In this document: one piece after another, positions 28,242 to 49,027 of the stretch | Layout of the letters: the number at the start of each line of letters is the position of its first letter | How positions within the stretch are numbered: position 1 is the first letter of the stretch | Assembly: GCA_002897655.1 (NCBI GenBank) | Contig: BDTJ01000033.1 | Span: 1-49,269 of the forward strand | Source of the DNA: an archaeon BMS3Abin17 | GTDB lineage: Archaea; Nanobdellota; Nanobdellia; Pacearchaeales; GW2011-AR1 | Direction of reading: 5' to 3' | DNA: 49,269 nucleotides | Notes under the pieces: model-generated | What the model was told of the DNA's origin: nothing | Seen by the model: the letters and a program-made list of their open reading frames with translations, nothing else | Database searches by the model: none | Made by a program: the position numbers and the translations under genes

Positions 28242-28424
28242 ATGGTAAAAGAGGAGATTTTATTTAAAAAAGGGGTAAGGGTTCAGGGGTTAAACAGGAT
28301 AGCTATTCCTAAAGAGCTTCTGGAGAATCTTGAGATGGAAGAAGGGGATAAAATTGTTATTTATTACAATGCAAAAAATTCCAGTATAAATATCAAAAAA
28401 GAAAAGGAGAAGAAAGATGAATAA
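28242..28424 (+). CDS. AbrB-type regulator coupled to the giant surface gene
   Basis: A 60-residue SpoVT/AbrB-like protein: FKKGVRVQGLNRIAIPKELLENLEMEEGDKIVIYY contains the looped-hinge IAIPKELLENL core, followed by an acidic/basic tail. Its last codons overlap the first codons of the 3456-residue gene (ATG at 28417, stop at 28422-28424), so translation is coupled. No toxin accompanies it, so I infer a dedicated regulator of the surface protein. Confidence 0.82.
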   Translation: MVKEEILFKKGVRVQGLNRIAIPKELLENLEMEEGDKIVIYYNAKNSSINIKKEKEKKDE

Positions 28425-34400: not shown

Positions 34401-37400
34401 TACAGGGGGGCTGGATTCTGCAGTGCATATTATCTCAGATAAGCCAATTGGTGTTGCTCAGGAAGCAGACCAGGATGGGACAGAGATGACAACATTCTTG
34501 CCAGAACATGAATTAGACACAGAATACTTTATCCCTCAAACAGCTTCTTATATTGCAGTCTCTGCAACATTTCCAGACACAAATTGCACTCTCTATAATG
34601 ATGCAGGAACAATTTTATCCTCTTCATTAACAGGAAGCAATCAAAGGCCATATCCAAATAAATGGTATTACGGACCAGACCAGTCAAGCAGCAATATTCC
34701 TGCAGGCTCAAGATTAAAGTGCGACCAGCCAGTTTATGCATATTACGAACAGTTTGGAGATGGTGGAGATGACGATGAGCACAATGTTTGGAGTATAAAA
34801 TCTTCCAGAAAATTCACAAATAATCCTCCAACCATAACAGAAACAGGAACACAAGAGCAATTCATAATAAGAGACATAAATGAAACTAATTCAAATGGCT
34901 TATACAGTTTTATATTTAATACAACTTCACAAATAATTGGGAATTACACTGCAATTAGCTTAACTTCAAAGCAAGGGTATAATAACGGAACAGGACAGGC
35001 ACAATTTGAAATTTTGACTCCTCTTGTACAAACAGCTCCAAATGTGACTCTCACAAACCCACCAAACAATACATTTCAAAATACATCAGCAATTATCTTA
35101 TATTATAATGCGACAGATATAAACAATAACATAGCAAATTCCACACTGATTTTAAACAGCCAGAGAAACACTACAAATCAGTCTGCTATTATTAACGGGC
35201 AGATAAATAATTTCACAATAACTCTCTCAGACGGAATTTACACATGGACAGTGAATGCAACAGATGCAACAAATTTAGAAGGAACAGATAACAGCACAAG
35301 AACCTTCACAATAGATACTCAAGCCCCGAGCATTGCATTGCATAATCCATTAGCTAATGAATCTTTTTCACAAGGGATAATAATATTTAATTTCACTGTA
35401 ACAGACAATACTGATACTGCAATGGTGTGTGATTTGATAGTGGACAGCACTGTTGAAGAAGATGATTTTAATGCTCAAAATAACACCCCTGTTAATTTCA
35501 CAAAGTCTTTTGGTGCAGGAACACACTTATGGAATGTTACTTGCTTGGATAATGCCGGCAATCTTGGGATAAGCCAGACAAGAAATTTCACTGTAACAGA
35601 AGAGCCTCCAACAGTTGAGTTAATTACAGGAAATGACACTTTTACAAATCTCACAACAATCACTCTTGTTTATAATGCAACAGACAATAACGGGTTTACT
35701 GAATCAAGATTAATATTAAACAGCATTGTAAATCAAACAAACCAGACAGAGATATTAAACGGGCAGTATAATAATTTTACTTTAACTGGTCTTTCTGATG
35801 GTATTTACACATGGACAGTTAATGTAACAGATACTGCAGGATTAAATGCAACTGCAATTCCAGAGAGAACCTTCACAGTAGACATCCAGCTTCCAGAGAT
35901 AAATCTTAACTTGCCTGCAGATAATTCTTTCTCAAACTCTTCGTCACTGAGTTTTAATTTTACAGCAGCAGATAATTTAGACTCTTCATTAACCTGCAGT
36001 CTGGCAGTTGGAGAAATTCAGGATAACAATTTCCAGGCAATTAACGGAACCCTGACAAACAGGGTTATTAATGGCTTGACTGATGGACTAAAGACATGGA
36101 ATGTTTCTTGTGTGGACAATGCAGGAAATTATAATATAAGTGAGAACCGTGCAGTAAACATAACAGAATATCCTGCAATACAGTTAAATACAGCAAACAG
36201 CTCATTTTTTAATACCTCTTCATTTAATCTTTCTTACACTCCCTCAGATAATACTAATTTAAGCAATTGTAGTTTATATGTTGATGATATTTTTAATCAA
36301 TCAAATTCCAGCCAGATAAATAACGGACAGCAGAATAATTTCTCTGTTTCAGGGATAAGTGAAGGCTCTCATAATTGGAGTGTTGTTTGCATGGATTATG
36401 CAAATCTTCAAAACCAGTCAGAAACAAGAATATTCACTGTTGATTTGGATGGATTAACAGTAGAGTTATTTGCTCCTGCTTCAGGAGCAATGATTTTTTC
36501 AGACACAGTTGAATTTAATTATACTGCTACTGACAATATTGACCCTGTTTTAGATTGTAATATAACTATAAATGGTGTTGTAGAGGACAGTTATAGCGCG
36601 CCAAATGGAACCCTGGTTTCAAGGCAGGTTACTTCTTCACAAGGAGGATTTAAATTATGGAATGTTACATGTATTGATGACTCATCAAATACTCAGACAA
36701 GCGAGACAAGAAACTTCACTCTCGCATTTGCACCAATTGTAACACTAAACAACCCGCCAAATAATAGTTTTTATAATTCATCCAGTATTACTCTTTTCTA
36801 TGAAGTTACAGATGATAATAACAATCTTGCAAATTCTACACTGATTTTAAATGGCCAGAGAAATATTACAAACCAGTCTGCAATTTTAAATGAGCAGGTT
36901 AATAATTTAACAGCTAGTTTGCCTGATGGAGTTTATATCTGGACAGTGAATGTAACAGATACAACAAATTTAGAAGGAACAGATAACAGCACAAGAACTT
37001 TCACAATAGATACCCAGCCACCAATAATAAATCTAAGCCAGCCGGAAAATAACAGTATTGTAACCTGGAATAATTTTAGTTATAATTTTACAGTTATTGA
37101 TGCCCTGGATGATGTTCTTTTGTGTGATATATATGTAAATGGAGCTTTAAATCATACTGTGAATGCAACAAATGGCACAGAAACTCTTGTAAGCAGTGTT
37201 CTTCCTGATGGAGGATATTTATGGAATGTATCTTGTTCAGATAATGCAAATAATACAGGATTTAGCACAGCCTTTAATTTCACAATGGAGGCTCCTCCGA
37301 ATGTTAGCTTGGTTACACCTGAAAATGAGCACTTTTCAAATACTTCCACAATTTCATTCACATATTTTGTGGACGACCCTATTGGAATAACAAACTGCTC

Positions 37401-38787
37401 TATATATATTGATGATGTTTTAAATGATTATACTGAAGAACCTTCAATTGGGTCGCAAAACACATTTATCATCAACAGCATCTCAGATGGCTATCACAAC
37501 TGGACAGTGGAATGCATTGATTCTCCGCCTGATTTAAACTCATTCAGGTCAGCAGTCAGGAATTTTACAGTCGATACAATTTTTCCAACAGTAACACTAA
37601 ATTCTCCAGAAGACAATTTAAACACACTTAAAACAGCAGATTTTAATTTTAGTGTTACAGATAATTTGGATGATATGTTAGATTGTGACCTTTATATTGA
37701 CGGGATTTTAAATATTTCATCAATCAATGTGCCAAATGGGTCTTCATCATCACAGACAATTAATAATCTTGATTTAGGAAGTCACTTATGGAATGTTTCT
37801 TGTGTGGATAATACAAACAATACAAACTGGTCAGAAACACGAACATTTAATGTTACACTGGCAGATTTAATGGTTAATACAACTTCCATAATCTTCAATA
37901 ATTCCAATCCAGTGGAAAATGAAACTATAATGATTAATGCAACAATTTATAATTTAATAAATGTCACAGTCCCAAATATAAATGTTAGTTTTTATGATGG
38001 CGACCCTGACATTTCAGGAATTCAGATAGGAGCAAATCAATTGATTTCTTCAATAAGTCCATTAGGACAGCAGATAGTTAACACCACATGGAATACTGAC
38101 CTGGCAACCTCTCAAATATTTGTAATTGTTGACCCTCCATATGCAACTAATGGAAGTATAGAGGAATGGAATGAAACAAACAATAAAGCAAATAAGTCAG
38201 TAACAATTGGGGGATGGCATTTTGTTTACGGAGATATAGATGAACAAAGCGAGTTTGAATTAGCAGAATCCTTGAGTAATAGAGTTATAAGATGGAATAC
38301 TACAAATTTTGATTCAGGAAATATCTATGTAGTTGATTCAGAATCATCAATTCTGTGGACTAATCTGCAGTCTATTGGAAGAAATACAACAGGACAGGCA
38401 ACATCCAATGATTTTTCTGATATTGATTTCTTATTAAACATGACTAACTTTGAGGATTCTGTTTCTAATCTTTACCTCAATAGTTCAGGAGATGTAATTA
38501 ATAAAACCTCTTTTATAGTGTTTAATAAACTGATTAATAATGTTCCTGTAGCAAATTCCACTAATAATACAAACTTTATGACCGGAATCTTCTGGGATAC
38601 CAGTGATGATTCAGATGGGGAGTATGACATTTCTGATGTTGAGGATATCATATTTGCAACACAAATAAACAAAGATGCACTGGGAGCATACGGAGTATAT
38701 GATTACGAGATAAGAATCCCTGCAAACTTAAGAGAATATATTGACATAGATTCGAGAAAAGCTGTATTTTATGCTGAACTTAATTAG
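28417..38787 (+). CDS. 3456-residue modular surface protein
   Basis: A membrane anchor or signal segment (about 11-33) opens the protein. Two related beta domains resembling H-type lectins lie at about 434-640 and 1027-1230 (tentative). Two FnIII-like modules (about 741-825 and 1328-1408) are each followed by a duplicated Cys-containing module (825-939, 1408-1522). A DUF2341 domain begins at WWNSSWQYRTS (about 1656), followed by a large beta domain to about 2126. About ten Ig-like modules of about 95 residues (2207-3148) mostly carry a Cys pair. A CARDB module (3148-3262) and the shared C-terminal domain (3267-3456) end it. Sequons are very frequent. There is no C-terminal anchor, so the N-terminus probably holds it in the membrane. 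It may be an adhesin or host-contact protein. Confidence 0.88.
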   Translation: MNNKGLIKRGIVGSFLIIFIFILLIVILSISSSAIIQKETYILGEKVKINLGNIKDYQLKIKTPSNSYVVKGDNEVFIFKPDEAGKYVLSLHYQEKLETYEFEVISEEKQPEIKSTQEIIEGVDGEIIEEDVNAKELDNETVSYDEPLGEGVIDNPEEQQITINKPVRWNIHKTLPENIEKIRIRIPSQAENISVNKITPAGKQNLDVKIDKNTLTNTLTRIKTLNKNQGEKTITLDNVNGEIELEYYTEAPTTKEKDLSESKKQVKVSSPDGLHYENVLSYTSILEFTSDKNLIKVYWKEENKYLNFEAFDKDGNGLLDYVEWIVPHLSEQTFEISIEILNVQSYPVVGGNWEVKFNTLGKADLKISGINGTVFGKDLEFLEIKCGDTALDYEWKNNDIFIKNYECEEEGTEVSKVLTPGKHTLEFSFGDNKAYAYNQAGYFQIEWNNLTVSCENWVSVNFKQPYESPIVVATPEYTSTSTDFGISSWVRNVNTTGFELRASNQGLNCTDNISMNYIVMEEGNWTLPGSGIKVEAGKFNTTKYGYQGAGNWDCPANGERIVFNHTFDDSNPLVISVRATDSNSGIWAATFQHGPTYNSDVNSTEMCTGLSRSRAGTTTFTNQETIHYIVADTGTGNISNVSFEINWWVHDTGPSGDLWINGYPDGRPFIQSWSSSWSSAPQVIAVGQTGVWGSDGGWPVLYDHNITYIRIFTDESNERAHGGSESGGGWAFESSGSSTPSPVISNVNATGISDSSATIIWNTDINSNSSVNYGTTLSLGSSNKNSDLVLNHSILLSGLNANTFYYYNVTSCSASGVCSTEGYDNFTTITGTPPVIFNITPANNSIIPNPVTLSASTSENADCEYSTNSNFTYGTGTDFTAGQGTSFHSTSLGSLSSGTYTYYIKCEDLSANANDDSNQGSTIFTVDEISPEITLHYPIAGEIDYLSPTVFNWTTTDNFDTILSCNLYLDDSLQESTITSSNGSVTNTSATAGFGAHNWTLNCSDDSNNTNSETSWFYFGQQTQSSKIGEVGRVEINASDWTLVTLTNTFITPVIVTGYEFPFNNTVPPVSVRMRNAGSSSFEIILQLANSTASPDDVGNLNVTYLAVEQGYHYMDDGTKIEAYRYDTGTVSSSGNGWNSADSKSYNHTYSTAPVVFHQVMTYTDANWITTFASADGDAANPPTTTGFQVSLNGAEFTNSHGTETIGYVVIEINNGINDLLLYESNISGDIVEGVDTDPSCGSYNINLDNSYSSSPIALSSVQSMDGSNGGWSHICSISTTQVSMRIEEDQFSDDERTHITEDVSIFVFESAGTIYSNTTIEIPQIYDVNATGISDSSATIEWNTNITSNSTVYYGLANTSYFMEGSLLFVLNHSIQITSLSESTTYFYIVESCSETSGTCNFSGTFNFTTITGTPPVIFNITPANNSIVSNPVTLSASTSEDADCEYNTNSNFTYGTGTDFTAGQGTSFHSTSLGSLSSGTYTYYIKCEDLSANANDDSNQGSTIFTVDEISPEITLHYPNEGDSLLNNVPFNWTTTDNIDSVLLCNLTINSVVYQSDINSTNGTVTNTTQILPDGLHLWNITCIDDAGNTNTSETRSFTIGAYIITNVTTDKSQYYQGDLANITINATDLTSLPLETNLTTDIVLGVSIDNSTIWWNSSWQYRTSHRVKENSGSDLTNYQINITLDTQNLISQGYMNSDCSDLRLADSSLRLLNFYIQNSSYDGCNTSITKIWVQLKSLKANESTLIYTYSGNNSAGSLSSEFLTFNYPSFQNLYYVVSNDITNVDVISFVDGNNVSNGTSYVSLDRGDLTSFSANQSTIISSTGPIFAAGDANSVDALAPISFAGTEFVYAVNRYNDVWHVYSPFENATVCVYDGEDGSGWTLINSCFTVNKNSATTVTRNVGGTSSTVDSANTDTAMINSTAPVLITHDTDSDTDSFVLYPASNDWWGVPSTRMTIGILEDSTLIQVYYSNGSNINYSGNHGQDIYLDTFSTGGLDSAVHIISDKPIGVAQEADQDGTEMTTFLPEHELDTEYFIPQTASYIAVSATFPDTNCTLYNDAGTILSSSLTGSNQRPYPNKWYYGPDQSSSNIPAGSRLKCDQPVYAYYEQFGDGGDDDEHNVWSIKSSRKFTNNPPTITETGTQEQFIIRDINETNSNGLYSFIFNTTSQIIGNYTAISLTSKQGYNNGTGQAQFEILTPLVQTAPNVTLTNPPNNTFQNTSAIILYYNATDINNNIANSTLILNSQRNTTNQSAIINGQINNFTITLSDGIYTWTVNATDATNLEGTDNSTRTFTIDTQAPSIALHNPLANESFSQGIIIFNFTVTDNTDTAMVCDLIVDSTVEEDDFNAQNNTPVNFTKSFGAGTHLWNVTCLDNAGNLGISQTRNFTVTEEPPTVELITGNDTFTNLTTITLVYNATDNNGFTESRLILNSIVNQTNQTEILNGQYNNFTLTGLSDGIYTWTVNVTDTAGLNATAIPERTFTVDIQLPEINLNLPADNSFSNSSSLSFNFTAADNLDSSLTCSLAVGEIQDNNFQAINGTLTNRVINGLTDGLKTWNVSCVDNAGNYNISENRAVNITEYPAIQLNTANSSFFNTSSFNLSYTPSDNTNLSNCSLYVDDIFNQSNSSQINNGQQNNFSVSGISEGSHNWSVVCMDYANLQNQSETRIFTVDLDGLTVELFAPASGAMIFSDTVEFNYTATDNIDPVLDCNITINGVVEDSYSAPNGTLVSRQVTSSQGGFKLWNVTCIDDSSNTQTSETRNFTLAFAPIVTLNNPPNNSFYNSSSITLFYEVTDDNNNLANSTLILNGQRNITNQSAILNEQVNNLTASLPDGVYIWTVNVTDTTNLEGTDNSTRTFTIDTQPPIINLSQPENNSIVTWNNFSYNFTVIDALDDVLLCDIYVNGALNHTVNATNGTETLVSSVLPDGGYLWNVSCSDNANNTGFSTAFNFTMEAPPNVSLVTPENEHFSNTSTISFTYFVDDPIGITNCSIYIDDVLNDYTEEPSIGSQNTFIINSISDGYHNWTVECIDSPPDLNSFRSAVRNFTVDTIFPTVTLNSPEDNLNTLKTADFNFSVTDNLDDMLDCDLYIDGILNISSINVPNGSSSSQTINNLDLGSHLWNVSCVDNTNNTNWSETRTFNVTLADLMVNTTSIIFNNSNPVENETIMINATIYNLINVTVPNINVSFYDGDPDISGIQIGANQLISSISPLGQQIVNTTWNTDLATSQIFVIVDPPYATNGSIEEWNETNNKANKSVTIGGWHFVYGDIDEQSEFELAESLSNRVIRWNTTNFDSGNIYVVDSESSILWTNLQSIGRNTTGQATSNDFSDIDFLLNMTNFEDSVSNLYLNSSGDVINKTSFIVFNKLINNVPVANSTNNTNFMTGIFWDTSDDSDGEYDISDVEDIIFATQINKDALGAYGVYDYEIRIPANLREYIDIDSRKAVFYAELN
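30889..31231 (+). repeat. 343-bp direct repeat, copy 1
   Basis: This stretch inside the giant gene is repeated at 32638-32980, offset by 1749 bp. By eye about 12 substitutions lie in the first 160 bp and none in the last 181 bp (31051-31231). Confidence 0.9.
32638..32980 (+). repeat. 343-bp direct repeat, copy 2
   Basis: Second copy of the segment at 30889-31231. The similarity extends upstream in a weaker form: the FnIII-like modules at about 30655 and 32401 begin with the same 38 bases or so. Confidence 0.9.
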
Positions 38788-38806: not shown

Positions 38807-38819
38807 GGGGGTTTCCGCC
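38807..38819. repeat. 13-bp inverted repeat, left arm
   Basis: GGGGGTTTCCGCC here is the exact reverse complement of GGCGGAAACCCCC at 45081-45093. The arms bracket the OLD-Res-Mod-RHH genes. Confidence 0.7.
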
Positions 38820-38916
38820 TTAGTCCTAACGGACATTTAGCCTTTTTCTACGAAAAAGAAATTTTATAGGGGGGTTTCCTAAGTCCTGCGGACATTTTGT
38901 CTCACTTCGTGAGAGA
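38820..38916. other. Cluster of short hairpins left of the restriction cassette
   Basis: Four perfect short stems lie here: GTCC/GGAC at 38823-38834, CTTTTTC/GAAAAAG at 38842-38858, GTCC/GGAC at 38883-38893 and TCTCAC/GTGAGA at 38900-38914. The stretch is also an imperfect tandem repeat (GGGTTTCC..AGTCCT..CGGACATTT twice). It lies between the convergent ends of the giant gene and the OLD-like gene, so some of it may act as bidirectional terminator. Confidence 0.6.
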
Positions 38917-38940
38917 ATATTAATAGAACGAGAGGGCATT

Positions 38941-40752
38941 TTATTTTTTCAAACTTTTATCTTTGATAAATTTAAGAAGTCTTTTGAAATTATTTCTTGT
39001 TTCCTTACTTATTTTAACAGACTTTTTTTGCACTAATAATTGATTTATCGCGTAATTCAAGTTTTCCTTCGCTTTTTTCCCATTAGATTTAATTTCATCA
39101 AAACTACCTATGCCATAAACAGAATCATGGATTTCTTTTTGATCAAATTCTTTAATAAGTCCTTCTGTTGCGGTGCTTATATCCAGAATGTCTTTTAATG
39201 TAAAAATTCTTTCTTTGAGAAATTCGTTAAATTCTTTTTCATATTTCTCTTTAGACCTTATGCTTGGGGCATCTCCGTCCATAATAACTAAAAATTCTTT
39301 TCCCCAAGATAAATAGAGTCTGATTATATCCCATAATTTGTCTTTTCCAGCCCCAGAATAAAAATTAAGAACATTTTGGTCTTTGAGTATAACTTCTGAA
39401 AAATATTTTATGGTATACCAATCATTTTTACCTTCTAGGATTACTATGTTAGGTATTGGTTCAACGGTACTTGGTTTATAATCCAGTTTATCAAGAATTG
39501 GTTGAAAGTAAGAAATCTTATCATTTCCTAATCCTGTCCCCACATAAGTGAAATATTTTATAGCTGATATTTTTGCTCCTTCACTCAGATTAAGATTTCC
39601 TGCAAGTGTCTCTTCAGACAAATCTTCATTTATGCAAATATATGCTCCTGATAACCAATCAATCTTTATCAAATGGTGACTATGAGTAGAGAAAATAACC
39701 AGTGCATCCTTACTAAGTTCACCCAATGCTTCTAAAATTTTAGTTTGTGCTGAAGAGTGTAAATTTGAAGCAGGTTCATCTAATAGAAAGAGAATGTTTT
39801 TGGTTCGTTTTTTTCTAAATTCAGTAAAAAGAAGAAATGAGAAGAACCATTTGAAGCCTTTGCTTCTCTCGTTCACTAAAAACTCCCTTTTACTCTGAGT
39901 TCTAATTTTGAATGTTAGGTAGAATCTTCCCCCAGAATATTTTGGCTCTAATTTTATTTCTTTGAAATTTACTTTATGTTCTCCAAATAATTCACTCCAC
40001 CTAGAAGTAATTTTCTCATCTAACACTTTTTCCATTTGGGCTAATCTATTGCTGGCAGCATCCTCATCAGTCTCCCAAATATCCACTACATGCTCTTGAA
40101 ACCCCATCTGTGAATTTACCACTTTGAGTATATCATCAATAACCGATTTCCAAACTTTGTTATCTTTATTTGTTATTTCTTCATCTTCTGCCACTCCTTG
40201 TTTGACAAAACATATCTTATTAGGAATTTGAAAAATGAAGTCATCGAAATAAAGTATTTCTGGTACAATCTCTTTTTTTACAAATTCGATTATTTCTTGC
40301 CAAATATTTCTATCTGTTTGGTATAGGCTTTTCTGTGCTGTTTTTATCTTAATTCCAAAATCACATGTTCTGGAAGTTTCCTGATAAGTATGCAACTTAA
40401 AAGTAAATTTATGGGTATAACTAAACTCATTGGGTATATCTAAGTGCGTTCTTTTCCTTTTCTTCTTCCAGTGTTCTTGAATTTGTTTTTTATCATCTTC
40501 TTCCAAACTTAATGTCGCTTCAATCTCTATGTCCCCTGTAAAATCTATACCTTTAGGTCGAAACTCATTTAATTCACTTGTTTCTGGATCGTTTCCTTTA
40601 ATCATACGATAAAATAACGCAATCGCTTCCATTATTGTAGTCTTTCCGCTTTCATTCAACCCTACAAGTGTGATGATTCTATTATTTTCTAAGTTAATCT
40701 CTACTTTGTCTATTCCTTTAAAGTTTTTTATTTTAAAATTCTTGTAAAGCAT
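38941..40752 (-). CDS. OLD-family ATPase/TOPRIM nuclease
   Basis: A 603-residue protein with an SMC/RecF-like ATPase (Walker A GLNESGKT at 31-38, ABC-type signature region NERSKGFKWFF around 294-304, Walker B LFLLDEP at 321-327 followed by STHSHHLI) and a C-terminal TOPRIM nuclease (ILEGKND with Glu at 440, IMDGDAP with Asp at 492 and 494). OLD proteins cleave DNA and are widely used in phage defence. No UvrD-like GajB partner is adjacent, so it is not a standard Gabija pair. It lies 18 nt after the type III Res gene on the same strand, and so appears to be co-transcribed with Mod and Res. Confidence 0.85.
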   Translation of the reverse strand: MLYKNFKIKNFKGIDKVEINLENNRIITLVGLNESGKTTIMEAIALFYRMIKGNDPETSELNEFRPKGIDFTGDIEIEATLSLEEDDKKQIQEHWKKKRKRTHLDIPNEFSYTHKFTFKLHTYQETSRTCDFGIKIKTAQKSLYQTDRNIWQEIIEFVKKEIVPEILYFDDFIFQIPNKICFVKQGVAEDEEITNKDNKVWKSVIDDILKVVNSQMGFQEHVVDIWETDEDAASNRLAQMEKVLDEKITSRWSELFGEHKVNFKEIKLEPKYSGGRFYLTFKIRTQSKREFLVNERSKGFKWFFSFLLFTEFRKKRTKNILFLLDEPASNLHSSAQTKILEALGELSKDALVIFSTHSHHLIKIDWLSGAYICINEDLSEETLAGNLNLSEGAKISAIKYFTYVGTGLGNDKISYFQPILDKLDYKPSTVEPIPNIVILEGKNDWYTIKYFSEVILKDQNVLNFYSGAGKDKLWDIIRLYLSWGKEFLVIMDGDAPSIRSKEKYEKEFNEFLKERIFTLKDILDISTATEGLIKEFDQKEIHDSVYGIGSFDEIKSNGKKAKENLNYAINQLLVQKKSVKISKETRNNFKRLLKFIKDKSLKK

Positions 40753-40770
40753 TCTATTACCTTGTTCTCC

Positions 40771-43122
40771 TCAAATTTCCAGATCTTGCCATTCAGTATA
40801 ATTTACATCTGCATTATACTCATCATTATCGTTTATTTTCCAAATTCCAGAAACATTAGAGATTATTCCACCTTTGAATTTTTTACCTGCTTTATTCTGC
40901 TCTTTAATCCATTTTTGTAGGGCTTCTGCTTTTCTTTTAGTATCAGCAGAGCCAACAGTTCCACTTAAACCTTGTTTTGTATCAAAAATTAAAATTGTAT
41001 CCTTTATTTTGATTACCCAATCTGGATAAAACAACTTTTCCTTTCTTTCAACTTCATCATAAAATGGTATTGAGAAATGTTCGCTCCCAGAATCTCCGCT
41101 TTTATACCACCAATCAACATTTTTTGATTCAATATATTTTATAAATTCTGTTTCGTTCTTCTTTCCAGAATAATCTTTGCCAATATAAAATGGAGTCATA
41201 GAGTTTTTATTTAGACCTTCAATTTCCTCATAATCCTCGGTAAAAAATAATGATGGTCTTGGAATTTCCAAATCTTCAATTCTTCTTGCTCGTGATTCTT
41301 TTTTCTTAACTTCTTCTTGTCTTATCGGTCTGTATTGTTCTAAAACTTCTGCAATTAACTTTTTAAGAATACTATCTGATTTCAAAAAATCATTAACAAT
41401 AATTGTATAATAAGCACTTCTTCTTTCCTGTATTTTTTCAGCAAACCAAACATTAAGAGCAGTTTTTAATTTTCCCCATGATCTTTCAGGAGCAAATTTT
41501 TTATTTTCTTCCTCTTGTTTTGAGATAATATTAAAACACAATAGGTTATACATTCTCTCTATATCATGTTTTGATGTTTCTTCACTTAAATCATCTCCCC
41601 TTTCCTTAATCTCTTTTACAAAATTATCGTAGTCTTCAATTTCAGCATCTACTATAAGCTTATTTTTAACTTTGACTTGGTATAGATCTAATCCTTTTGC
41701 GATTAGTTTCTTTTTTACATTCTCGATAAATTCTTTCTTTTCAACATCAAAAAATTTATCAGCAACATCTTTAAATGTAATTTGGAAAGAATCTCCCAAA
41801 TCATTGTAATCTGTTCTTCCCATGAATGTTGATTGTAGAATTATTGGCTTTATCCCATCTTTTCTAAAACTTGGAAGATTAGCTGGTTTATTCTTTCCTA
41901 TCTGATTATCAGGTAGATGTATTTGGTTTCTTTCATAGTTTGTATAAAGATAACCTATATTGAGATTAGGTTTTGGATAATGAATTGCTTCAGGCATTCT
42001 CAAAATTCTGCCTACAGTTTGAGTATGGAAAACCGGGCTTTTTATCTCTCTAAACATCACTAAAACAGAAGCTCTTGGACAATCCCAACCAGTAGCGGCA
42101 GCTTGTTTAAAAATCAAGAATGAGACTAAAGAATCGTTTTGCTCTATTTCTTCCAGATTTTCTTTTTTATTAGACAACCATATCGCTATATCTTTTTCAT
42201 CAATATCTTTATCCCTTAAAAAATCCTTTACTATATCTAATTTTGATTTATCCAGTGTTTCTTTTCTTGCTTGATCATCATTTGGCAATTGAACCAAAAC
42301 AAGAGGATTTATCTCTAAACCCAAATCTTTGTATTCTTTTTGCAATTCTGATCTTTTATTAAAAGCCAGCTCCAATAACATTGAATCTTGGTCTATTTCT
42401 TTTTTAGCTAATTTATCCAAATCTTCTTTTGTCTGTGTAATTACTTTTTCTTTTATTAAGCCCTCCTCAACAACATCTTCCCTTATAACTTCAACAAAAC
42501 CTGCTCTTTTCTGCAAAACATCAGAAGCACTTGGCTCTGTTTTGGGTGTGGCTGTGATTTTTAGGATTATTCTTGGATTGATTAAATCAATTAACTCATC
42601 TGCAAGAACTGTATCTGTATCTCTATGTGCTTCATCAACGATTAAAACTAATTCTCTATTATCTCCCTGCGTTCTTTTTATGAACTCATCAAAAATTCCT
42701 TCATCTCCGTAAGTGTATTCAGTTGGGTTTCTTAGTTTTCTTCCTTCTTTTGTTGAAGATTTTATTTTCTGCCAATTGATAAAGAAAACATTGTTTTTCT
42801 CAAGTTTTCCGTTACTTAGATCATTTAAGTCAAGCAAGTTTAATTCATTTGCCCCACCATAATAATCAAAAAGCTTATTTTTACTTTGCACATATGATTC
42901 TTCGTTGAAACTAAACCATAAATAAGATTTATCAACATTAAATTGAGGATCATTACTCATATCCTTTAGAAATTGCGCAATCATAACAGTTTTACCGCTT
43001 CCTGTAGGAGATTTTAGAATTAAAGGTAGTTTTCGGTTTGTAGTTTTCCATAACTCCAAAAACTGCTTTCTCAATTGCCTAATGGCTTCTTCTTGAAATT
43101 TTTTTAAATGTATTATTGTCAT
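40771..43122 (-). CDS. res: Type III restriction enzyme, Res subunit
   Basis: A 783-residue SF2 translocase-nuclease. Walker A is PTGSGKT (39-45), the DEAH box is at 163-166 (LIVDEAHRDT), KITATPKTEP is motif III, and AATGWDCPRASVLVMF with QTVGRILRMP are motifs V and VI. The C-terminal PD-D/ExK nuclease is YPDWVIKIKDTILIFDTKQG, with catalytic residues near 701, 714 and 716. It works only together with Mod, cutting about 25 bp from recognition sites after translocation or diffusion. It starts 4 nt after Mod ends. It is shorter than many Res proteins (about 970). Confidence 0.93.
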   Translation of the reverse strand: MTIIHLKKFQEEAIRQLRKQFLELWKTTNRKLPLILKSPTGSGKTVMIAQFLKDMSNDPQFNVDKSYLWFSFNEESYVQSKNKLFDYYGGANELNLLDLNDLSNGKLEKNNVFFINWQKIKSSTKEGRKLRNPTEYTYGDEGIFDEFIKRTQGDNRELVLIVDEAHRDTDTVLADELIDLINPRIILKITATPKTEPSASDVLQKRAGFVEVIREDVVEEGLIKEKVITQTKEDLDKLAKKEIDQDSMLLELAFNKRSELQKEYKDLGLEINPLVLVQLPNDDQARKETLDKSKLDIVKDFLRDKDIDEKDIAIWLSNKKENLEEIEQNDSLVSFLIFKQAAATGWDCPRASVLVMFREIKSPVFHTQTVGRILRMPEAIHYPKPNLNIGYLYTNYERNQIHLPDNQIGKNKPANLPSFRKDGIKPIILQSTFMGRTDYNDLGDSFQITFKDVADKFFDVEKKEFIENVKKKLIAKGLDLYQVKVKNKLIVDAEIEDYDNFVKEIKERGDDLSEETSKHDIERMYNLLCFNIISKQEEENKKFAPERSWGKLKTALNVWFAEKIQERRSAYYTIIVNDFLKSDSILKKLIAEVLEQYRPIRQEEVKKKESRARRIEDLEIPRPSLFFTEDYEEIEGLNKNSMTPFYIGKDYSGKKNETEFIKYIESKNVDWWYKSGDSGSEHFSIPFYDEVERKEKLFYPDWVIKIKDTILIFDTKQGLSGTVGSADTKRKAEALQKWIKEQNKAGKKFKGGIISNVSGIWKINDNDEYNADVNYTEWQDLEI

Positions 43123-43126
43123 ATTC

Positions 43127-44827
43127 TCAACTCAAACGATTAACCTCTTTATAAACATCAATAATCGGCTCTGGAATATCCTCGACCTTTATATTTTTGT
43201 ATTCTGTATATTCATTTTTATATTCATTCTTACCCCAGCTAAAAATATAGAGGACTACTTTTTCCTTTAATTTTGATAACTTCTTTACTAATTCATTTAA
43301 TTTTTTCTTGTCCTCTTTGAAATAAATTGCAGTGTATTTTGTTCCATCCCTGAAAATCTGCCACCACTCATTTTTTTCTACTTCTATAAACGCCCCTTCC
43401 CTTAATGCAATCATTTCACCAGCTCTGTAAGTAAGTCTAATCTTCTGCTCATCAGAAACATGAGAAATATGGTCAATATCCAAAAGCTCGGTTTTGAAAT
43501 ATCTTAAATTAGCAGGAATTTTAGTTATATCTGACCATTTCTTATGCCCCTCAATTACTTTTTTAATTCTTGGATAACAAACATCTACAGCAATATTATT
43601 CTCGTTATTTGTGCATAAAATAAACTTTCTGTTCCCATTATCTTCTTTGTTTAGAAGCATTACTGCGTGACCCGTTGTTCCAGAACCAGCAAAATAATCT
43701 AAAACAATAGCGTTTTTTCTTTCTAAAACTATCGGAGCTAAACAATCATAAACATTATAAACTGATTTTGGAAAATCAAAAGAAGTTGATGGAACTAAAT
43801 CTTGTATTAGTTTTGTTCCATATTCAGAAGCATCATATTTACTTTTTTGCCATACGGTTCTAACAATGCCAAAATCTTTTCCAATAGCTATATCATATCC
43901 TTGCTTTGTTTTTTTAACCCTTAATAGATGTTTTACCGATTCTATACTTTGTCTTGCATATCTCCATTTTCTTTCATTACCTTTAACGTCAATAGGCCAA
44001 ATGTAGTATTTGCCATTTTTTTCTTCTGTTTGTTTTTTAGGGTGATTACCATTATCTAAAACATCTCCAAAACCTATTATTTTCTCATCTTTTACTATAA
44101 TCTGATAAAAACAGTTACGAGCATTTGTTCGCATAGATTCTTTTCCACTATCTCTTAAACCTCTCCAATCAACATCTTCCTCATTAATTTTTCTTGAACC
44201 AATAACTTTCAAACCTTTTCTAAAAACAAAATATGCAAATTCATTCGTATAAGAAAAGTTTTTACCTTGAACTCCGCGAGGATTATGTATAATAGTTACA
44301 CAATGAATTTCATAATCCTTGAAAATTTCTTCTAGTAACACTCCCAAATGATTAACTTCATTATCATCTATAGCACATATAAGCACACCATTCTCTTTTA
44401 GAAGATTTTTAGCAAGCCATAATCTTTTTGACATCATACCTAACCATTTACTATGGCGGTATAAGTCGTTTATATCAACATAATTATTGTTATACTTCCA
44501 ATCTTTTGCCCCAGTATTGTAAGGGGGATCAATATAAATAACATCAATTTTCTTTTTATGTGTATAATTTAAAACAGAAAGTGAATGGTAATTATCTCCT
44601 TCAATCAATACATTAACTGGGTTTTCTTTGTCTGAAATAATCTCTTTTGATTTGGCTTCTTTCAAAATTGGAATTTTGACTTGACAATCTAAAATAATTT
44701 GTTCTGGTTCTCTTTCTTCCTCAAAAACTAATCCATATTTCTTTCTGGCTTTTAGAATCTTAACCTGTCTCTTTAGCTTCCCTACTTCTCCTAGCAATTC
44801 TTTATTTTTTTTCTCAATTTTATCCAT
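43127..44827 (-). CDS. mod: Type III DNA adenine methyltransferase, Mod subunit
   Basis: A 566-residue beta-class N6-adenine methyltransferase: DPPY (100-103) in VIYIDPPYNTGAKDW comes first, a target-recognition region follows (about 170-350), and the SAM-binding FAGSGTTGHAVML lies downstream. An N-terminal coiled coil (about 1-32) probably supports the Mod dimer. It recognises the asymmetric site for both methylation and restriction. It starts 1 nt after the RHH gene stop and is followed by Res with a 4-nt gap. Confidence 0.94.
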   Translation of the reverse strand: MDKIEKKNKELLGEVGKLKRQVKILKARKKYGLVFEEEREPEQIILDCQVKIPILKEAKSKEIISDKENPVNVLIEGDNYHSLSVLNYTHKKKIDVIYIDPPYNTGAKDWKYNNNYVDINDLYRHSKWLGMMSKRLWLAKNLLKENGVLICAIDDNEVNHLGVLLEEIFKDYEIHCVTIIHNPRGVQGKNFSYTNEFAYFVFRKGLKVIGSRKINEEDVDWRGLRDSGKESMRTNARNCFYQIIVKDEKIIGFGDVLDNGNHPKKQTEEKNGKYYIWPIDVKGNERKWRYARQSIESVKHLLRVKKTKQGYDIAIGKDFGIVRTVWQKSKYDASEYGTKLIQDLVPSTSFDFPKSVYNVYDCLAPIVLERKNAIVLDYFAGSGTTGHAVMLLNKEDNGNRKFILCTNNENNIAVDVCYPRIKKVIEGHKKWSDITKIPANLRYFKTELLDIDHISHVSDEQKIRLTYRAGEMIALREGAFIEVEKNEWWQIFRDGTKYTAIYFKEDKKKLNELVKKLSKLKEKVVLYIFSWGKNEYKNEYTEYKNIKVEDIPEPIIDVYKEVNRLS

Positions 44828-44828
44828 A

Positions 44829-44972
44829 TTACTTACCTTTATTTTTCTTTAATTCCTCAACCATAAAATTCTCAAACTGCTTTGACAGAATAATACCTTT
44901 TTGTTCGCAGTATCTTCTATACTGTTCATAAACTTCTTCTTCAACGCTTAATGATACTGTTCTTTTTACCAT
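44829..44972 (-). CDS. 47-residue ribbon-helix-helix regulator of the R-M operon
   Basis: A CopG-like protein, VKRTVSLSVEEEVYEQYRRY followed by GIILSKQFENFMVEELKK. It is the first gene of the operon: its stop and the Mod ATG are 1 nt apart. GGTGGT lies just before its ATG. An 8-bp inverted repeat that brackets the TATA box (44984-45009) is a likely operator. I infer it limits expression of the restriction system, much as C proteins do in type II systems. Confidence 0.8.
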   Translation of the reverse strand: MVKRTVSLSVEEEVYEQYRRYCEQKGIILSKQFENFMVEELKKNKGK

Positions 44973-44983
44973 AACCACCAACC

Positions 44984-45009
44984 CATTTAAGTATATATAA
45001 GCTTAAATG
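44984..45009. promoter_or_regulatory. TATA box bracketed by an 8-bp inverted repeat
   Basis: CATTTAAG (44984-44991) and CTTAAATG (45002-45009) enclose TATATATAAG. On the minus strand the TATA element lies about 25 nt before the RHH ATG. Binding of the RHH dimer would occlude it. Confidence 0.6.
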
Positions 45010-45080
45010 TAACTAATATATAAATTTAACTACACCCTCTCTTAAAAATCTTCTTTTTAGAAAAAGAAGCAAAAAATGGC

Positions 45081-45093
45081 GGCGGAAACCCCC
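45081..45093. repeat. 13-bp inverted repeat, right arm
   Basis: GGCGGAAACCCCC, the reverse complement of the arm at 38807-38819. Just outside the promoter of the R-M operon and next to a 9-bp hairpin (CTTCTTTTT/AAAAAGAAG, about 45049-45068). Confidence 0.7.
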
Positions 45094-45119
45094 AGAATTA
45101 AAATATAGACACGACGACT

Positions 45120-45252
45120 TTGATTTTTTCGGCTTCGCCGAACGTTACACTAAAAATCAATCCCTAACGGGAGAATATAACAGGAATTTAACGGTTACGA
45201 AACCTTGCAGGTTTCTCCACCCAAATCGCCTTCGGCGACTTCGTTAAATGCC
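45120..45252. other. Densely structured intergenic segment, candidate RNA
   Basis: Nested stems fill this region. A 9-bp stem (45120-45128 with 45152-45160) encloses TTCGGC/GCCGAA (45128-45142). An 8-bp stem ATTTAACG/CGTTAAAT (45186-45193 with 45242-45249), extended by GG/CC after an A-G mismatch, encloses two hairpins, GAAACC/GGTTTC (45199-45215) and TCGCC/GGCGA (45226-45238), giving a three-way junction. No coding frame is apparent. The whole gap 44973-45334 otherwise holds the two flanking promoters. Confidence 0.5.
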
Positions 45253-45334
45253 GATGAACTACCTACCCATAAAAAGCATATTCATATGATAAATGGTGTT
45301 GTTTTTTATATGTCTGGTTTAGTAAACAAAGAAA

Positions 45335-45517
45335 ATGAAATACATTAAACCATCTATGAAATTTAATCCAGGATTAAAGAAATATGAGCCAGAACTTCCA
45401 TTAAGAAAAAGAGGAAGAAAAGTCCAATCAAAAGTAGATTGGAAGTGGATCTTAATAATATTGGGAAGTTTAATAATTATTGGATTAATGTCTTATTGGT
45501 TAATGGTGTATTATTAA
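45335..45517 (+). CDS. Small single-pass membrane protein
   Basis: A 60-residue protein with a Lys/Arg-rich start (ending RKRGRKVQSKVDWK) and one membrane helix at about 38-58 (WILIILGSLIIIGLMSYWLM), inside-to-outside by charge. A TATA-like TTTTTTATATG lies about 30 nt before the ATG. It may be co-transcribed with the DUF1284 gene 16 nt downstream. Function unknown. Confidence 0.6.
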   Translation: MKYIKPSMKFNPGLKKYEPELPLRKRGRKVQSKVDWKWILIILGSLIIIGLMSYWLMVYY

Positions 45518-45533
45518 TTTAATAGGAGAACCT

Positions 45534-45929
45534 ATGGAGAAAAAATTATCAAAATACGAAATTGAACTTAGACCACACCATGTGCTTAGGTATATTAACT
45601 ATATCAAAAATCCTAAAGCAAATCATTTTGCAGAATTCAGAAAAATAAAAGGAGATTTTCATTCAGATAAATTAGTCAAACACTGGATCAATACTCTTAA
45701 AAGCCTATTTGAAAATCCGAAATTAAGATTCAAGTATGTTCAAGGAATTGATTCAATATGCAAGAAATGTGAACATAATAAGGAGTGTCATGATAAAGAC
45801 CACGAATATTATAAAATTGTTAAAAAAGCTGACAAAGACGCTATTAAAAATATACTTGAATTAGAATTTGGAAAAGTTTATACTGCTAAATTCCTTTGGG
45901 AGTTATTTAGGAGAAAGGGTTGGTTATAG
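45534..45929 (+). CDS. DUF1284-family protein
   Basis: A 131-residue protein beginning YEIELRPHHVLRYINYIKNPKANHF, matching the DUF1284 opening (LRPHHLLC..Y), and containing SICKKCEHNKECHDKDHEYY, a Cys/His cluster typical of the family's predicted metal or iron-sulfur site. The first conserved Cys of the family (HHxxC) is Arg here. The biochemical role is unknown. GGAG lies before the start codon. Confidence 0.75.
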   Translation: MEKKLSKYEIELRPHHVLRYINYIKNPKANHFAEFRKIKGDFHSDKLVKHWINTLKSLFENPKLRFKYVQGIDSICKKCEHNKECHDKDHEYYKIVKKADKDAIKNILELEFGKVYTAKFLWELFRRKGWL

Positions 45930-45968
45930 AAAATGCTTATTGTATGTGGGGTATGCTACCTACTAAAT

Positions 45969-46238
45969 CTAATTGGTTTGGAATAGTTCATCTATTTTCT
46001 TCATATAATACTCAGAACTTTTTTCTATGGTTTCCTCTGAAACTTTTTCAAGTTTAAGCAAAACTCTTGATAACAAATAAACATCTGCAATTTCTCTTAA
46101 AAATGTCTCTCGCTTTTCTTTATCCTCTTTTAATTTTCTCAGTTTATCCATGTGCAATTCTATTCTCTCAATCAAATGAGAAAAGAGTTCTTTATCATTA
46201 AATTTTCTCCGATAAATTTTCAAGATTTCTTCTTCCAT
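45969..46238 (-). CDS. MazG-like helical protein
   Basis: An 89-residue, all-helical protein. REIADVYLLSRVLLKLEKVS with the acidic residues and the following EETIEKSSEYYMKKIDELF is arranged like the metal-binding helices of MazG-type nucleotide pyrophosphohydrolases, but the preceding EExxE helix is weak, so activity is uncertain. The TATA-like ACTTAAAAAA lies about 27 nt before the ATG. Just upstream is the TTGTCGAGAT motif shared with two neighbouring promoters. Confidence 0.6.
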   Translation of the reverse strand: MEEEILKIYRRKFNDKELFSHLIERIELHMDKLRKLKEDKEKRETFLREIADVYLLSRVLLKLEKVSEETIEKSSEYYMKKIDELFQTN

Positions 46239-46277
46239 AAAAATATAATTCCAAGATGTTTTTTAAGTTTTCCTATA

Positions 46278-46287
46278 TTGTCGAGAT
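46278..46287. promoter_or_regulatory. Shared TTGTCGAGAT motif, copy 1
   Basis: This 10-bp motif (ATCTCGACAA on the minus strand) lies just upstream of the TATA-like sequence for the MazG-like gene. Other copies are at 46850 and 47422. Confidence 0.5.
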
Positions 46288-46299
46288 AAGGTGCATAGA

Positions 46300-46902
46300 T
46301 TAAACTATATCTATATCAAACACCTGCAATAAAGAAATAGCTTCTGGTAAGGAGAATTTGGCTTTTTTAAGATTATTTTGGTTTGGATTAATAAAATATT
46401 CTTTGGCATCTTTAAAAGAAGCAAAATTTAGGTTTGTATTTTGAAAATTACTCCCTTTAAGGTTTGAACCTTCAAAGCTAGATTTAGTTAAATCTGTATT
46501 GATAAAATCGCAATCATTAACCTTGCAGTGCAGAAACATAGTATTTTTCAGATTTATGTCTGAGAATATGGCATTAGATATAAGACATTCTTCAAATCCT
46601 AACTTCAATAATAAGGTATTACATTCTGAAAAATTTACTCCCAGAATCTTACAATTCTTAAAATTGACATTTTGGAATCTTGTCCCATTGATTTTCACAT
46701 TAGATAAATTACAATTTTCAAAAATACAATCTGTAAAAGAAGCCTTGGAAAGATCTTGACCATTAAAATCAACATTCTTAAATGTTCTAGATTCAAACTC
46801 TTGATCAGCATATTCCATAAGAGGCATATTCAAATAGTTCTTATAAATCTTGTCGAGATGGGGTGGATATAATTTACTTATAGACTCTTTTCCGATGGTC
46901 AA
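46300..46902 (-). CDS. Pentapeptide-repeat protein
   Basis: A 200-residue protein whose residues about 42-165 are pentapeptide repeats (A(D/N)Lxx type): FKNVDFNGQDLSKASFTDCI, FENCNLSNVKINGTRFQNVN, then DLTKSSFEGSNLKGSNFQNT. These build a right-handed quadrilateral beta helix. Some pentapeptide proteins mimic DNA and inhibit gyrase, but most have no known role. The longest frame overlaps the RelE gene by 29 nt. An internal TATA box (GATTTATAAG) and shared motif lie 25 nt before the ATG at 46816-46818 (Met 29, MEYADQEFESRTF), so a leaderless 172-residue form is equally possible. Confidence 0.85.
   Translation of the reverse strand: MTIGKESISKLYPPHLDKIYKNYLNMPLMEYADQEFESRTFKNVDFNGQDLSKASFTDCIFENCNLSNVKINGTRFQNVNFKNCKILGVNFSECNTLLLKLGFEECLISNAIFSDINLKNTMFLHCKVNDCDFINTDLTKSSFEGSNLKGSNFQNTNLNFASFKDAKEYFINPNQNNLKKAKFSLPEAISLLQVFDIDIV
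46850..46859. promoter_or_regulatory. Shared TTGTCGAGAT motif, copy 2
   Basis: Located inside the longest frame of the pentapeptide gene, directly upstream of GATTTATAAG and an ATG at the leaderless distance. Confidence 0.5.
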
Positions 46903-47119
46903 ACTTCAATAATATTAATTCATTTACTTTTATTGCATAAATAAGCCTAAAAGGTTTAATGTAAAGGGTTCTTTCTCCTCTTGTATATTTTAATGGCTTT
47001 CCAACAAAATGGTTTTCTAAAATCTTAGCAATCTGTGCCTTTAATTTCTTTAATAAGAAATCATCAAGTTTTTTAGTTTGTTTAACAAAAAGAGGTGAAC
47101 GAGTAATCTTATTTATCAT
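46874..47119 (-). CDS. RelE-family toxin
   Basis: An 81-residue toxin (from the ATG at 47117-47119; an ATG four codons earlier overlaps the antitoxin stop). INKITRSPLFVKQTKKLDDFLLKKLKAQIAK is the helical pair, GKPLKYTRGERTLYIKPFRLIYAI the central sheet, LLKFDHRKRVYK the basic C-terminal end with the usual H-R-x-x-Y pattern of RelE toxins. It follows an AbrB antitoxin, a known partner type. Confidence 0.88.
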   Translation of the reverse strand: MINKITRSPLFVKQTKKLDDFLLKKLKAQIAKILENHFVGKPLKYTRGERTLYIKPFRLIYAIKVNELILLKFDHRKRVYK

Positions 47120-47120
47120 T

Positions 47121-47372
47121 TCACCACGCATTCATTTCTTTAAGAAAATCCTCTTTTTTGAGAGTAATACCTTTACCCTCATCAATATCTTTCCATATCT
47201 TATTAAGTTCTTTGAGTTCCATTTCTTCTTCTTTTGTCAAACCATCCACTTTCTTTAATATAATCAAATTATCTTTCTTAGTTACAGTAAAGGGTGTCCC
47301 AACTCCAATATTCTTTCTTATTTCTTCAGGGATTACAATTTGACCTTTTGTGCTAAGTTTAGTTATTTCCAT
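47121..47372 (-). CDS. AbrB-type antitoxin
   Basis: An 83-residue protein beginning with the SpoVT/AbrB motif EITKLSTKGQIVIPEEIRKN. The C-terminal half is acidic helix (LTKEEEMELKELNKIWKDI) likely to contact RelE. The stop is next to the toxin start. An inverted repeat between TATA box and ATG (47378-47396) is a likely self-operator. Confidence 0.9.
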   Translation of the reverse strand: MEITKLSTKGQIVIPEEIRKNIGVGTPFTVTKKDNLIILKKVDGLTKEEEMELKELNKIWKDIDEGKGITLKKEDFLKEMNAW

Positions 47373-47377
47373 ACCAG

Positions 47378-47396
47378 AAGTAAGATATTCTTACTT
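47378..47396. promoter_or_regulatory. 8-bp inverted repeat, likely AbrB operator
   Basis: AAGTAAGA (47378-47385) and TCTTACTT (47389-47396) are perfect arms with a 3-nt spacer. A TATA-like GTTTATAAGT lies immediately upstream on the minus strand, 27 nt from the AbrB ATG. Confidence 0.55.
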
Positions 47397-47421
47397 ATAA
47401 ACTTTTTGTTTTTTATAAGTA

Positions 47422-47431
47422 TTGTCGAGAT
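47422..47431. promoter_or_regulatory. Shared TTGTCGAGAT motif, copy 3
   Basis: Upstream of a TATA-like ACTTATAAAA on the minus strand, in front of the AbrB-RelE operon. The three copies are each 572 bp apart. Confidence 0.5.
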
Positions 47432-47547
47432 GGAGTGTATTGGTTTAATCATGAGATTTTTTTAAGAGATATCTTTATTAGAAATATTATAATCAAAATG
47501 TGATAAGTTTAAATAATTAAAATCCTTAATTTAAAAAAGAGGTTAAA

Positions 47548-48678
47548 ATGAAAAAGAACGTTCTTAAATTGAATGCAAATTCTGAAATAATTGAATGGGC
47601 AATTAAGACTTCTGGTTGGGAAATTAATGAAATATTAAAAAAATTAGATATAAGTAAAAATACTTACGACAAATGGATAAAAAGATTAGATAACCCAACT
47701 TTTAAGCAATTAGAATTAATTTCTTGGAAAACAAAAAGACCACTAGCTTTATTTTTTTTAGATAAGATTCCTTCAGAAAAACCAATTCCTAAGGATTTTA
47801 GGCTAAATCCAGAAAAAGAAGGGCAATTCAATAAAAAAACAATTTTTGCAATAAGAAAATCAAGAAAACTTCAATCGATATTAAAAGAATTTGGGGAGAA
47901 TTATCTTGGAGAAGTAATTAAAGATTTGAAAGTAAGCACAAATAACTCTCCTAAGGAAGTGGCATTGCGTTTAAGAAAAAGATTTGGAATAACAGAAGAA
48001 TTACAAAGAAAAACTAAAGATCCATGGAGTTTTTTCAAAATTCTTAGGAAAAAGTTAGAAGAAGAAAAAATATTTAATTTTCAAATATCTATGCCTTTAG
48101 AAGACGCACGAGGATTTGCTTTATCAGATGATTTACCAAGAGTGGTTGTGGTAAATTCAGGGGATTTAATAGAAGCTAGAATTTTTACATTAATTCATGA
48201 ATTTGGGCATATCCTTTTAGGAGACACTGAAGTCAGCATTCCAAATTTTATTGATACAAATAGCCATGAAAAATGGTGCAATGAATTCGCTTCCACATTT
48301 TTATTACCTATTGAAATGGCAAAAAGAATTTTTAAAGAAAATGACAAAGATTTGATAGGATATAATACTCTAAAAAGATTATCTAGGAAATATAAGGTTA
48401 GTAAATCTATGCTTCTTTACAATATGGTAAAGTTAAAATTTATTACTCCTACAGATTATATGGAAATATTGGAAAGATACTCTAAAAAAGATTATTCTCA
48501 AAATAAATCTGGGGGCGGGGGAATTCCTGCTGAAAAAAGATGTATTAGTGAATTAGGTGCTTCTTTTGTTTCATTGGTTGCAGATAATATTGATAAAAAA
48601 ATAATTACTTATAGTGATGCTTTAGACTATCTTTCAATAAAATCGAAGAATTTCGAAAAATTAATGAATAAAATTTAA
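47548..48678 (+). CDS. HTH plus ImmA/IrrE metallopeptidase
   Basis: A 376-residue protein with an N-terminal helix-turn-helix (about 15-60, INEILKKLDISKNTYDKWIKR) and an ImmA/IrrE (DUF955) zinc protease domain with LIHEFGHILLGD (HEFGH at 217-221) and a downstream Glu in EKWCNEFASTFLLP (about 240-255). Such proteins cleave or bind repressors or act as antitoxins; fusions of this kind are commonly paired with DUF4411 PIN toxins. The ATG follows a purine-rich GAGG, and a TATA-like GTTTAAATAA lies about 40 nt before it. The partner toxin starts 1 nt after its stop. Confidence 0.88.
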   Translation: MKKNVLKLNANSEIIEWAIKTSGWEINEILKKLDISKNTYDKWIKRLDNPTFKQLELISWKTKRPLALFFLDKIPSEKPIPKDFRLNPEKEGQFNKKTIFAIRKSRKLQSILKEFGENYLGEVIKDLKVSTNNSPKEVALRLRKRFGITEELQRKTKDPWSFFKILRKKLEEEKIFNFQISMPLEDARGFALSDDLPRVVVVNSGDLIEARIFTLIHEFGHILLGDTEVSIPNFIDTNSHEKWCNEFASTFLLPIEMAKRIFKENDKDLIGYNTLKRLSRKYKVSKSMLLYNMVKLKFITPTDYMEILERYSKKDYSQNKSGGGGIPAEKRCISELGASFVSLVADNIDKKIITYSDALDYLSIKSKNFEKLMNKI

Positions 48679-48679
48679 A

Positions 48680-49027
48680 ATGGGAAGGAAAAATTTTTAC
48701 ATAATTGATAGTTGTTCTTTAATTGATTTAAATCGCCATAATCCAATAGATGTATTTCCAAGTTTGTGGAAAAAGATTGGAGAATTAATTAATTCAGATA
48801 TGATGATATCCCATATACAAGTTTTTAATGAGATAATCCAACAAGATGATACTCTGGCAGAATGGCTTAAGAAATATAGAAAAATGTTTAGAAATGTTAC
48901 TCTAAAACAAGCAGAAATAGTTAGTGAAATATTGAAAAAATATCCTTCTTTTGTGAAAATAGATAAACAATATGATGCTGATCCTTGGTTAATTAAAAAG
49001 AAATCTCCATCTTTGAAGATGGAGTAA
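48680..49027 (+). pseudogene. DUF4411 PIN toxin truncated by IS200/IS605 insertion
   Basis: The first about 107 residues match the DUF4411 PIN family: YIIDSCSLIDLNRH with the active-site Asp residues, then NEIIQQDD, AEIVSEILKKYP, and YDADPWLI, which is the conserved DxDPWLI segment. Families of this type continue for about 50 more residues (the last strands and Asp), but here the frame runs into the left end of an IS element and stops at TGA after KKKSPSLKME. It should be inactive. With the ImmA/IrrE gene it formed a TA pair. Confidence 0.8.

Follow-up and report, generated by a model that had tools for sequence, protein, structure and literature searches.

A type III restriction-modification operon in a putative decayed cassette of an integron-like system in a DPANN archaeon

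The window analysed here, meaning the whole stretch of 49,269 nt, comes from the archaeon BMS3Abin17 (GCA_002897655.1, contig BDTJ01000033.1, positions 1-49,269, forward strand), and its genes and features around two 13 bp inverted arms are collected in Table 1. A Mod methyltransferase and a Res helicase/nuclease are encoded together between the arms, identifying a type III restriction-modification system by Pfam and PADLOC. The original prediction had read the cargo as a ribbon-helix-helix (RHH) regulator, Mod, Res and OLD. Mod, Res and the OLD-like ATPase were recovered with both Pfam and PADLOC, whereas the small ORF had no match in either and resembles an RHH regulator by eye. A TATA-like promoter can be read from the sequence near 45000-45020, upstream of this ORF. 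No transposase family was found by Pfam among the genes between the arms, in agreement with the prediction. To the left, a gene on the + strand (28417-38787) stops 20 bp short of the left arm and encodes a 3456-aa protein, probably a surface protein, with Ig-like domains, an H-type lectin match and long internal repeats (30888-31187 and 32637-32936, for example, are 96% identical). Right of the folded site described below, 45335-49027 encodes a DUF1284 protein, a pentapeptide-repeat protein and an HTH + IrrE-like peptidase gene beside a DUF4411 gene, the last two looking like a toxin-antitoxin-type pair.

Table 1. Genes and sequence features of the restriction cassette and its folded right-hand site.
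Feature	Positions	Strand	Evidence or remark
Left 13-bp arm GGGGGTTTCCGCC	38807-38819	+	Unique in genome apart from right arm
Left cassette end: arm, GTCC/GGAC hairpin, poly-T/poly-A 38842-38858, second GGGGGTTTCC 38870-38879, CTCAC/GTGAG	38807-38937	+	
OLD/AriA-like AAA_15 ATPase, 603 aa	38941-40752	-	Pfam AAA_15 3.7e-25; PADLOC AriA 3.6e-26, Old 6.6e-17
Type III restriction subunit Res, 783 aa	40771-43122	-	Pfam ResIII 4.6e-17; PADLOC REase_III 5.6e-18
Type III modification methyltransferase Mod, 566 aa	43127-44827	-	Pfam N6_N4_Mtase 7.2e-22; PADLOC MTase_III 2.1e-70
Small ORF resembling RHH regulator	44832-44972	-	RHH likeness by eye
Poly-T/poly-A hairpin beside right arm, counterpart of 38842-38858	45049-45068		Repeated in related right ends
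Right 13-bp arm, reverse complement of GGGGGTTTCCGCC	45081-45093	-	Conserved with flanks in G028 C5
Second inverted-repeat block, GTCGTCGTGT on - strand	45109-45118	-	Left-end partner present in related cassettes, lost in window
Two accessory hairpins 5' of site: TTGATTTTTT[CGGCTTCGCCG]..AAAAATCAA and TCCC[TAAC]GGGA	45120-45172	+	Conserved in relatives
Core recombination-site-like element	45173-45267	+	Covariance model R1, 82.3 bits, E 1.1e-13 (site itself one of the 20 sequences in the model); covariation
5' box TATAACA	45176-45182	+	Part of core element
Inner stem, GGAATTTAACG with CGTTAAATGCC	45183-45193 with 45242-45252	+	Part of core element
Core element hairpins	45199-45215 and 45227-45237	+	
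3' box GATG	45253-45256	+	Then decayed AACT in place of TT(A)

Simulating a stretch this A+T-rich with a first-order Markov model shows that chance alone should yield exact 13 bp inverted pairs if composition is ignored (mean 1.74), but none of 300 simulations gave a pair with at least 9 G/C. The inverted repeat predicted at 38807 and 45081 is borne out. The poly-T/poly-A hairpins and further short stems predicted beside both arms are also present, and the arms can be aligned past 13 bp only if gaps are allowed. The 1.09-Mb genome contains two exact copies of GGGGGTTTCCGCC, which are the two arms, and at up to two mismatches three further, scattered places and no others. With so few copies, we do not regard the exact 13-mer as an element spread through the genome, and single repeats occurring across the genome as terminators are not what is seen. 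The left arm has a second, partial copy, GGGGGTTTCC. Among genomes with matches to this 10-mer the sole true relative is contig C5 of G028, a member of another genus in which the flanks of the right arm are conserved, and 10-mer pairs in G029, G022 and G052 were rejected as bracketing pairs because the sequence around them is unrelated. A tRNA or Rfam identity for the repeats was also rejected, the only match being an unrelated tRNA-Ser.

The left end of the window cassette matches the left ends of cassettes in two other genomes, with 82% identity over 133 bp to L114:4785-4911 (genome G172) and 88% identity over 87 bp to L118:2523-2608 (G186). The cargo differs, being a CfrBI restriction endonuclease and methylase in L114 and a DsrE/ArsR set in L118. 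In both loci the left end reads TTATATTC-AA-TCGTCGTGT-...-GGGG(G)TTTCCGCC and the right end, in reverse complement, TTATATTC-[two hairpins]-..TCGTCGTGT-...-GGGG(G)TTTCC, while the window left end lacks the outermost TTATATTC..TCGTCGTGT. We read the 13 bp arms as outer portions of a folded site for integron-like recombination that the cassette has opened. Within the interrupted inverted repeat they form the inner part, with the outermost part abutting the crossover. Since the arms are parts of an opened folded site, target duplications are not expected. The proposal that these are the ends of an exchangeable defence cassette moving in trans thus survives in part. Looking in relatives for ends of this type around other cargo, as had been proposed, found them in L114 and L118, and candidate recombinases lie elsewhere in the genome. 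The arms, however, are not terminal repeats of the transposon type, and the crossover points of the window copy look degenerate. Res homologues in G007 and G028 were rejected as relocated cassettes, having no sites nearby.

The right-hand hairpins belong to a conserved element of about 160 bp (45109-45267), which on the + strand has a DNA fold z of -4.8 versus shuffled DNA. Of 200 genomes of the order, 118 had matches to the query 45030-45290, frequently with multiple matches on a contig. The common core runs from TAACAG into a stem strand whose central bases are TTAA-like, followed by a hairpin, CCAAAT, another hairpin, ACTTC and the partner strand of the stem, and finishes on GATGTT; in the window the 3' box is GATGAACT rather than GATGTT. 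A first gapped search pattern was wrongly spaced and gave no matches. We built a covariance model, R1, from 20 sites. Two-sided changes in the inner stem preserve pairing across copies: in 108 R1 matches, which lie in other loci but were aligned to R1 and include some copies of model-building sites, 90.3% of stem cells are paired compared to 73.9% when shuffled, with 229 versus 75 two-sided changes and a covariation score of 0.388 versus 0.133. Sliding the partner by one column destroys the covariation, and slides of up to three columns leave at most 48 two-sided changes.

R1 gave 59 matches over 21 loci, and each contig's sites all lie on one strand, the exceptions being chance-level matches and those overlapping their own reverse. 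Over all loci, adjacent sites are on the same strand in 98 of 98 pairs, with a median gap of 930 bp. Accessory genes lie between neighbouring sites, and cassette cargo includes methyltransferases, MazF/MazE, DNA methylases and NYN. Of 371 genomes sampled from the phylum (DPANN), 117 match R1 at E <= 0.001; the related genomes are nearly all MAGs, and all the evidence is comparative. A 20-base core pattern occurs in named records of Woesearchaeota, Pacearchaeota, Aenigmatarchaeota, Altiarchaeota, Nanohalarchaeota and a few bacterial MAGs, mostly CPR, with no match in viral contigs. Elsewhere in the window's genome, R1 detects seven to eight sites on contig C31, three on C18 and two on C41, some of which score weakly, and the window contig has one site only, with no recombinase near. 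Recombinase-linked arrays lie at G000:C31:17107-24420 (L249) and G000:C18:299-2965 (L108) of this genome, and four cassette proteins examined from the C31 array had no Pfam match.

Recombinases of the PF00589 family are encoded near the arrays and divergently from them in many genomes, including on C31 and C18 of the window's own genome. They are assigned to the XerA-type family NF040815, and their best solved relative is P. abyssi XerA (4a8e). In a tree, 16 XerA without arrays, including the window genome's copy on C38, form one clade that we read as housekeeping XerA, while the array-linked recombinases fall mostly in other clades and not in a single one (6 label changes versus 14 when shuffled). 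The C31 and C18 array recombinases belong to two different clades. Aligned with IntI1 and IntI4, the array recombinases lack the IntI-specific region of about 58 residues, and TIGR02249 and IntI4 (2a3v) align to them in two pieces flanking the missing block. A C-terminal SPLD motif was considered as an integron mark and found uninformative, as it is present in housekeeping XerA too.

If cassettes circularise, their own left and right ends should pair. Counted over the six box-adjacent positions in 45 cassettes, some of which come from loci that overlap on the same contig, pairing reached 0.72 between a cassette's own ends (p = 0.0013), compared to 0.49 between the two halves of one array site and 0.44 when ends were paired at random. 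A Woesearchaeota MAG (L170:101-903) and a Candidatus Uhrbacteria (CPR) MAG (L200:2258-3060) share a methyltransferase cassette at 93.4% identity, and this identity starts exactly at GTTATAATC, the predicted G|TT crossover, with unrelated sequence upstream. This could be a cross-domain cassette transfer or a misbinned bacterial contig. At L170:820-1020 the 3' half of the second site diverges from L200 after CCAAAT while the rest of the cassette is nearly identical, as though recombination or deletion also took place inside the hairpin region of sites.

Taking these comparisons together, we put the probability at roughly 80% that the RHH-Mod-Res-OLD operon lies in a decayed cassette of an integron-like DPANN system, in which an XerA-family recombinase would act at folded sites. 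An intact cassette would begin just past GATG|TT and close with an AACA box, inner stem, two hairpins, partner stem and GATG, and the predicted circle would complete the site by pairing the cassette's left end with its right, a folded single strand presumably being the substrate. The tyrosine recombinase, encoded divergently at the array end, would excise and insert cassettes at G|TT, acting in trans for distant copies, and the 13 bp arms would form part of an outer stem common to one class of cassette ends. The window operon would have been acquired in this way and would now sit in a large (~6.4 kb), probably decayed cassette. Counting against this reading are its larger than usual size, the defects at its left end and 3' box, a contig with a single site and no recombinase near, genes that run opposite to the site, as 73 of 160 cassette ORFs nevertheless do, the Res homologues of two relatives without sites nearby, and the non-divergent recombinases and far-side site described below. 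Because its left end lacks TTATATTC and TCGTCGTGT and its 3' box is GATGAACT, the restriction cassette is best read as old and probably immobile, and the current mobility of this copy is doubtful.

The strongest competitor, which we nonetheless regard as unlikely, is that the locus is an ordinary integron fragment (CALIN or single attC) of the archaeal IntI/attC type reported in 2022, with the sites being divergent attC. Using IntI and attC models, Ghaly et al. 2022 (PMC9668308) detected integrons in 75 of 6718 archaeal genomes, Nanoarchaeota among them, and reported these integrons to be rich in genes for toxin-antitoxin and restriction systems; some of their Nanoarchaeota arrays could overlap with the DPANN arrays here. 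The topology is shared, with one-strand cassette arrays split by imperfect folded sites in R''-L''-L'-R' order, AAC...GTT boxes, a probable G|TT junction, a divergent integrase gene at one end, defence and stress cargo and cross-domain sharing, and the NCBIfam title of the array recombinase family is 'tyrosine recombinase/integron integrase'. Against this, the array recombinases score highest with XerA, group with it and lack the IntI-specific region. Exact GTTRRRY was present in 18 and exact RYYYAAC in 8 of 77 sites counted, all of which have AAC and GTT but had been chosen for them. R1 had no matches in the fetched plasmid loci, most of which carry class 1/2 integron arrays. Unlike attC, the DPANN sites have a conserved inner stem, a GA bulge and two conserved hairpin positions, the sequence of the hairpins and junction inside the site being conserved across genera, and their cassettes carry accessory hairpins and cassette-specific outer inverted repeats. 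The sites also occur in about a third of sampled phylum genomes (117/371), compared to the 75/6718 archaeal genomes reported (PMC9668308). A reciprocal model from canonical attC was dropped, as its pattern search recovered three sites only. As tested, the integron-like system appears distinct from canonical IntI/attC because the IntI-specific domain is absent and R1 is negative in class 1/2 integron loci.

It is less probable still that 45173-45267 is a lone or fossil site, the restriction operon not cassette cargo and the left block a coincidental fragment. Both crossover points look decayed, and the contig lacks a second complete site, none being detected from 45335 to the contig end. However, other cassettes with right ends matching that of the window have left ends that are homologous to the left block and co-oriented with it, and L114 has the same arrangement around a different restriction-modification pair.

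Terminal inverted repeats of a transposon or MITE, with a transposase in trans, would account for two inverted arms around cargo with no transposase inside, but this is very improbable given that relatives' sites are single-oriented (98/98), that the ends are unequal with extra hairpins and a site at the right end, that the G|TT junction is common to other sites, and that the sites are associated with a recombinase. Equally hard to credit are structured RNAs or transcription terminators that chance to flank operons: the hairpins have T runs and an RNA would show strong covariation too, but Rfam gave no match at gathering over the window and none at E <= 1 over the element. Cassette ORFs can face either way (87 on the site strand and 73 opposite, n = 160, those of the window cassette opposite), and own-cassette end pairing and a mobile junction also speak against this reading.

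The cassette reading also invites comparison with Xer systems. The array recombinases share family NF040815 with archaeal XerA/dif but fall mostly outside the array-less XerA clade, and their putative target is large and folded, not a simple dif. In the Xer-dependent pdif modules of plasmids, a Xer-family recombinase moves small gene modules by means of short dif-like sites in alternating orientation. Recombinase family and small gene modules are thus alike, while the DPANN sites are long and folded and keep to a single strand.

To our knowledge, how tiny, reduced-genome symbiotic archaea gain accessory and defence genes is largely unknown. We lean, with less assurance than for the window cassette, towards DPANN having an integron system of their own, with XerA-family recombinases lacking the IntI-specific domain and distinct folded sites, widespread, and with cassettes including whole restriction systems exchanged with co-resident archaea and CPR bacteria. 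If true, a cassette system found in roughly one in three of the phylum genomes sampled would be a main route of accessory and defence gene acquisition, and cassette capture at folded sites would need no IntI-specific domain, which bears on the origin of integrons from Xer recombinases. Such a widespread integron-like gene-exchange system is apparently undescribed; our literature search turned up no paper on DPANN cassette arrays based on XerA, although such a paper may exist. A concrete candidate recombinase-site pair is now available for testing. Array layouts vary around these recombinases: in a Nitrospinae MAG (L169) and an Aenigmatarchaeota MAG (L172) the recombinase gene is near the sites in a non-divergent orientation, and at L230:10915-11006 a site on the array's strand lies beyond the recombinase.
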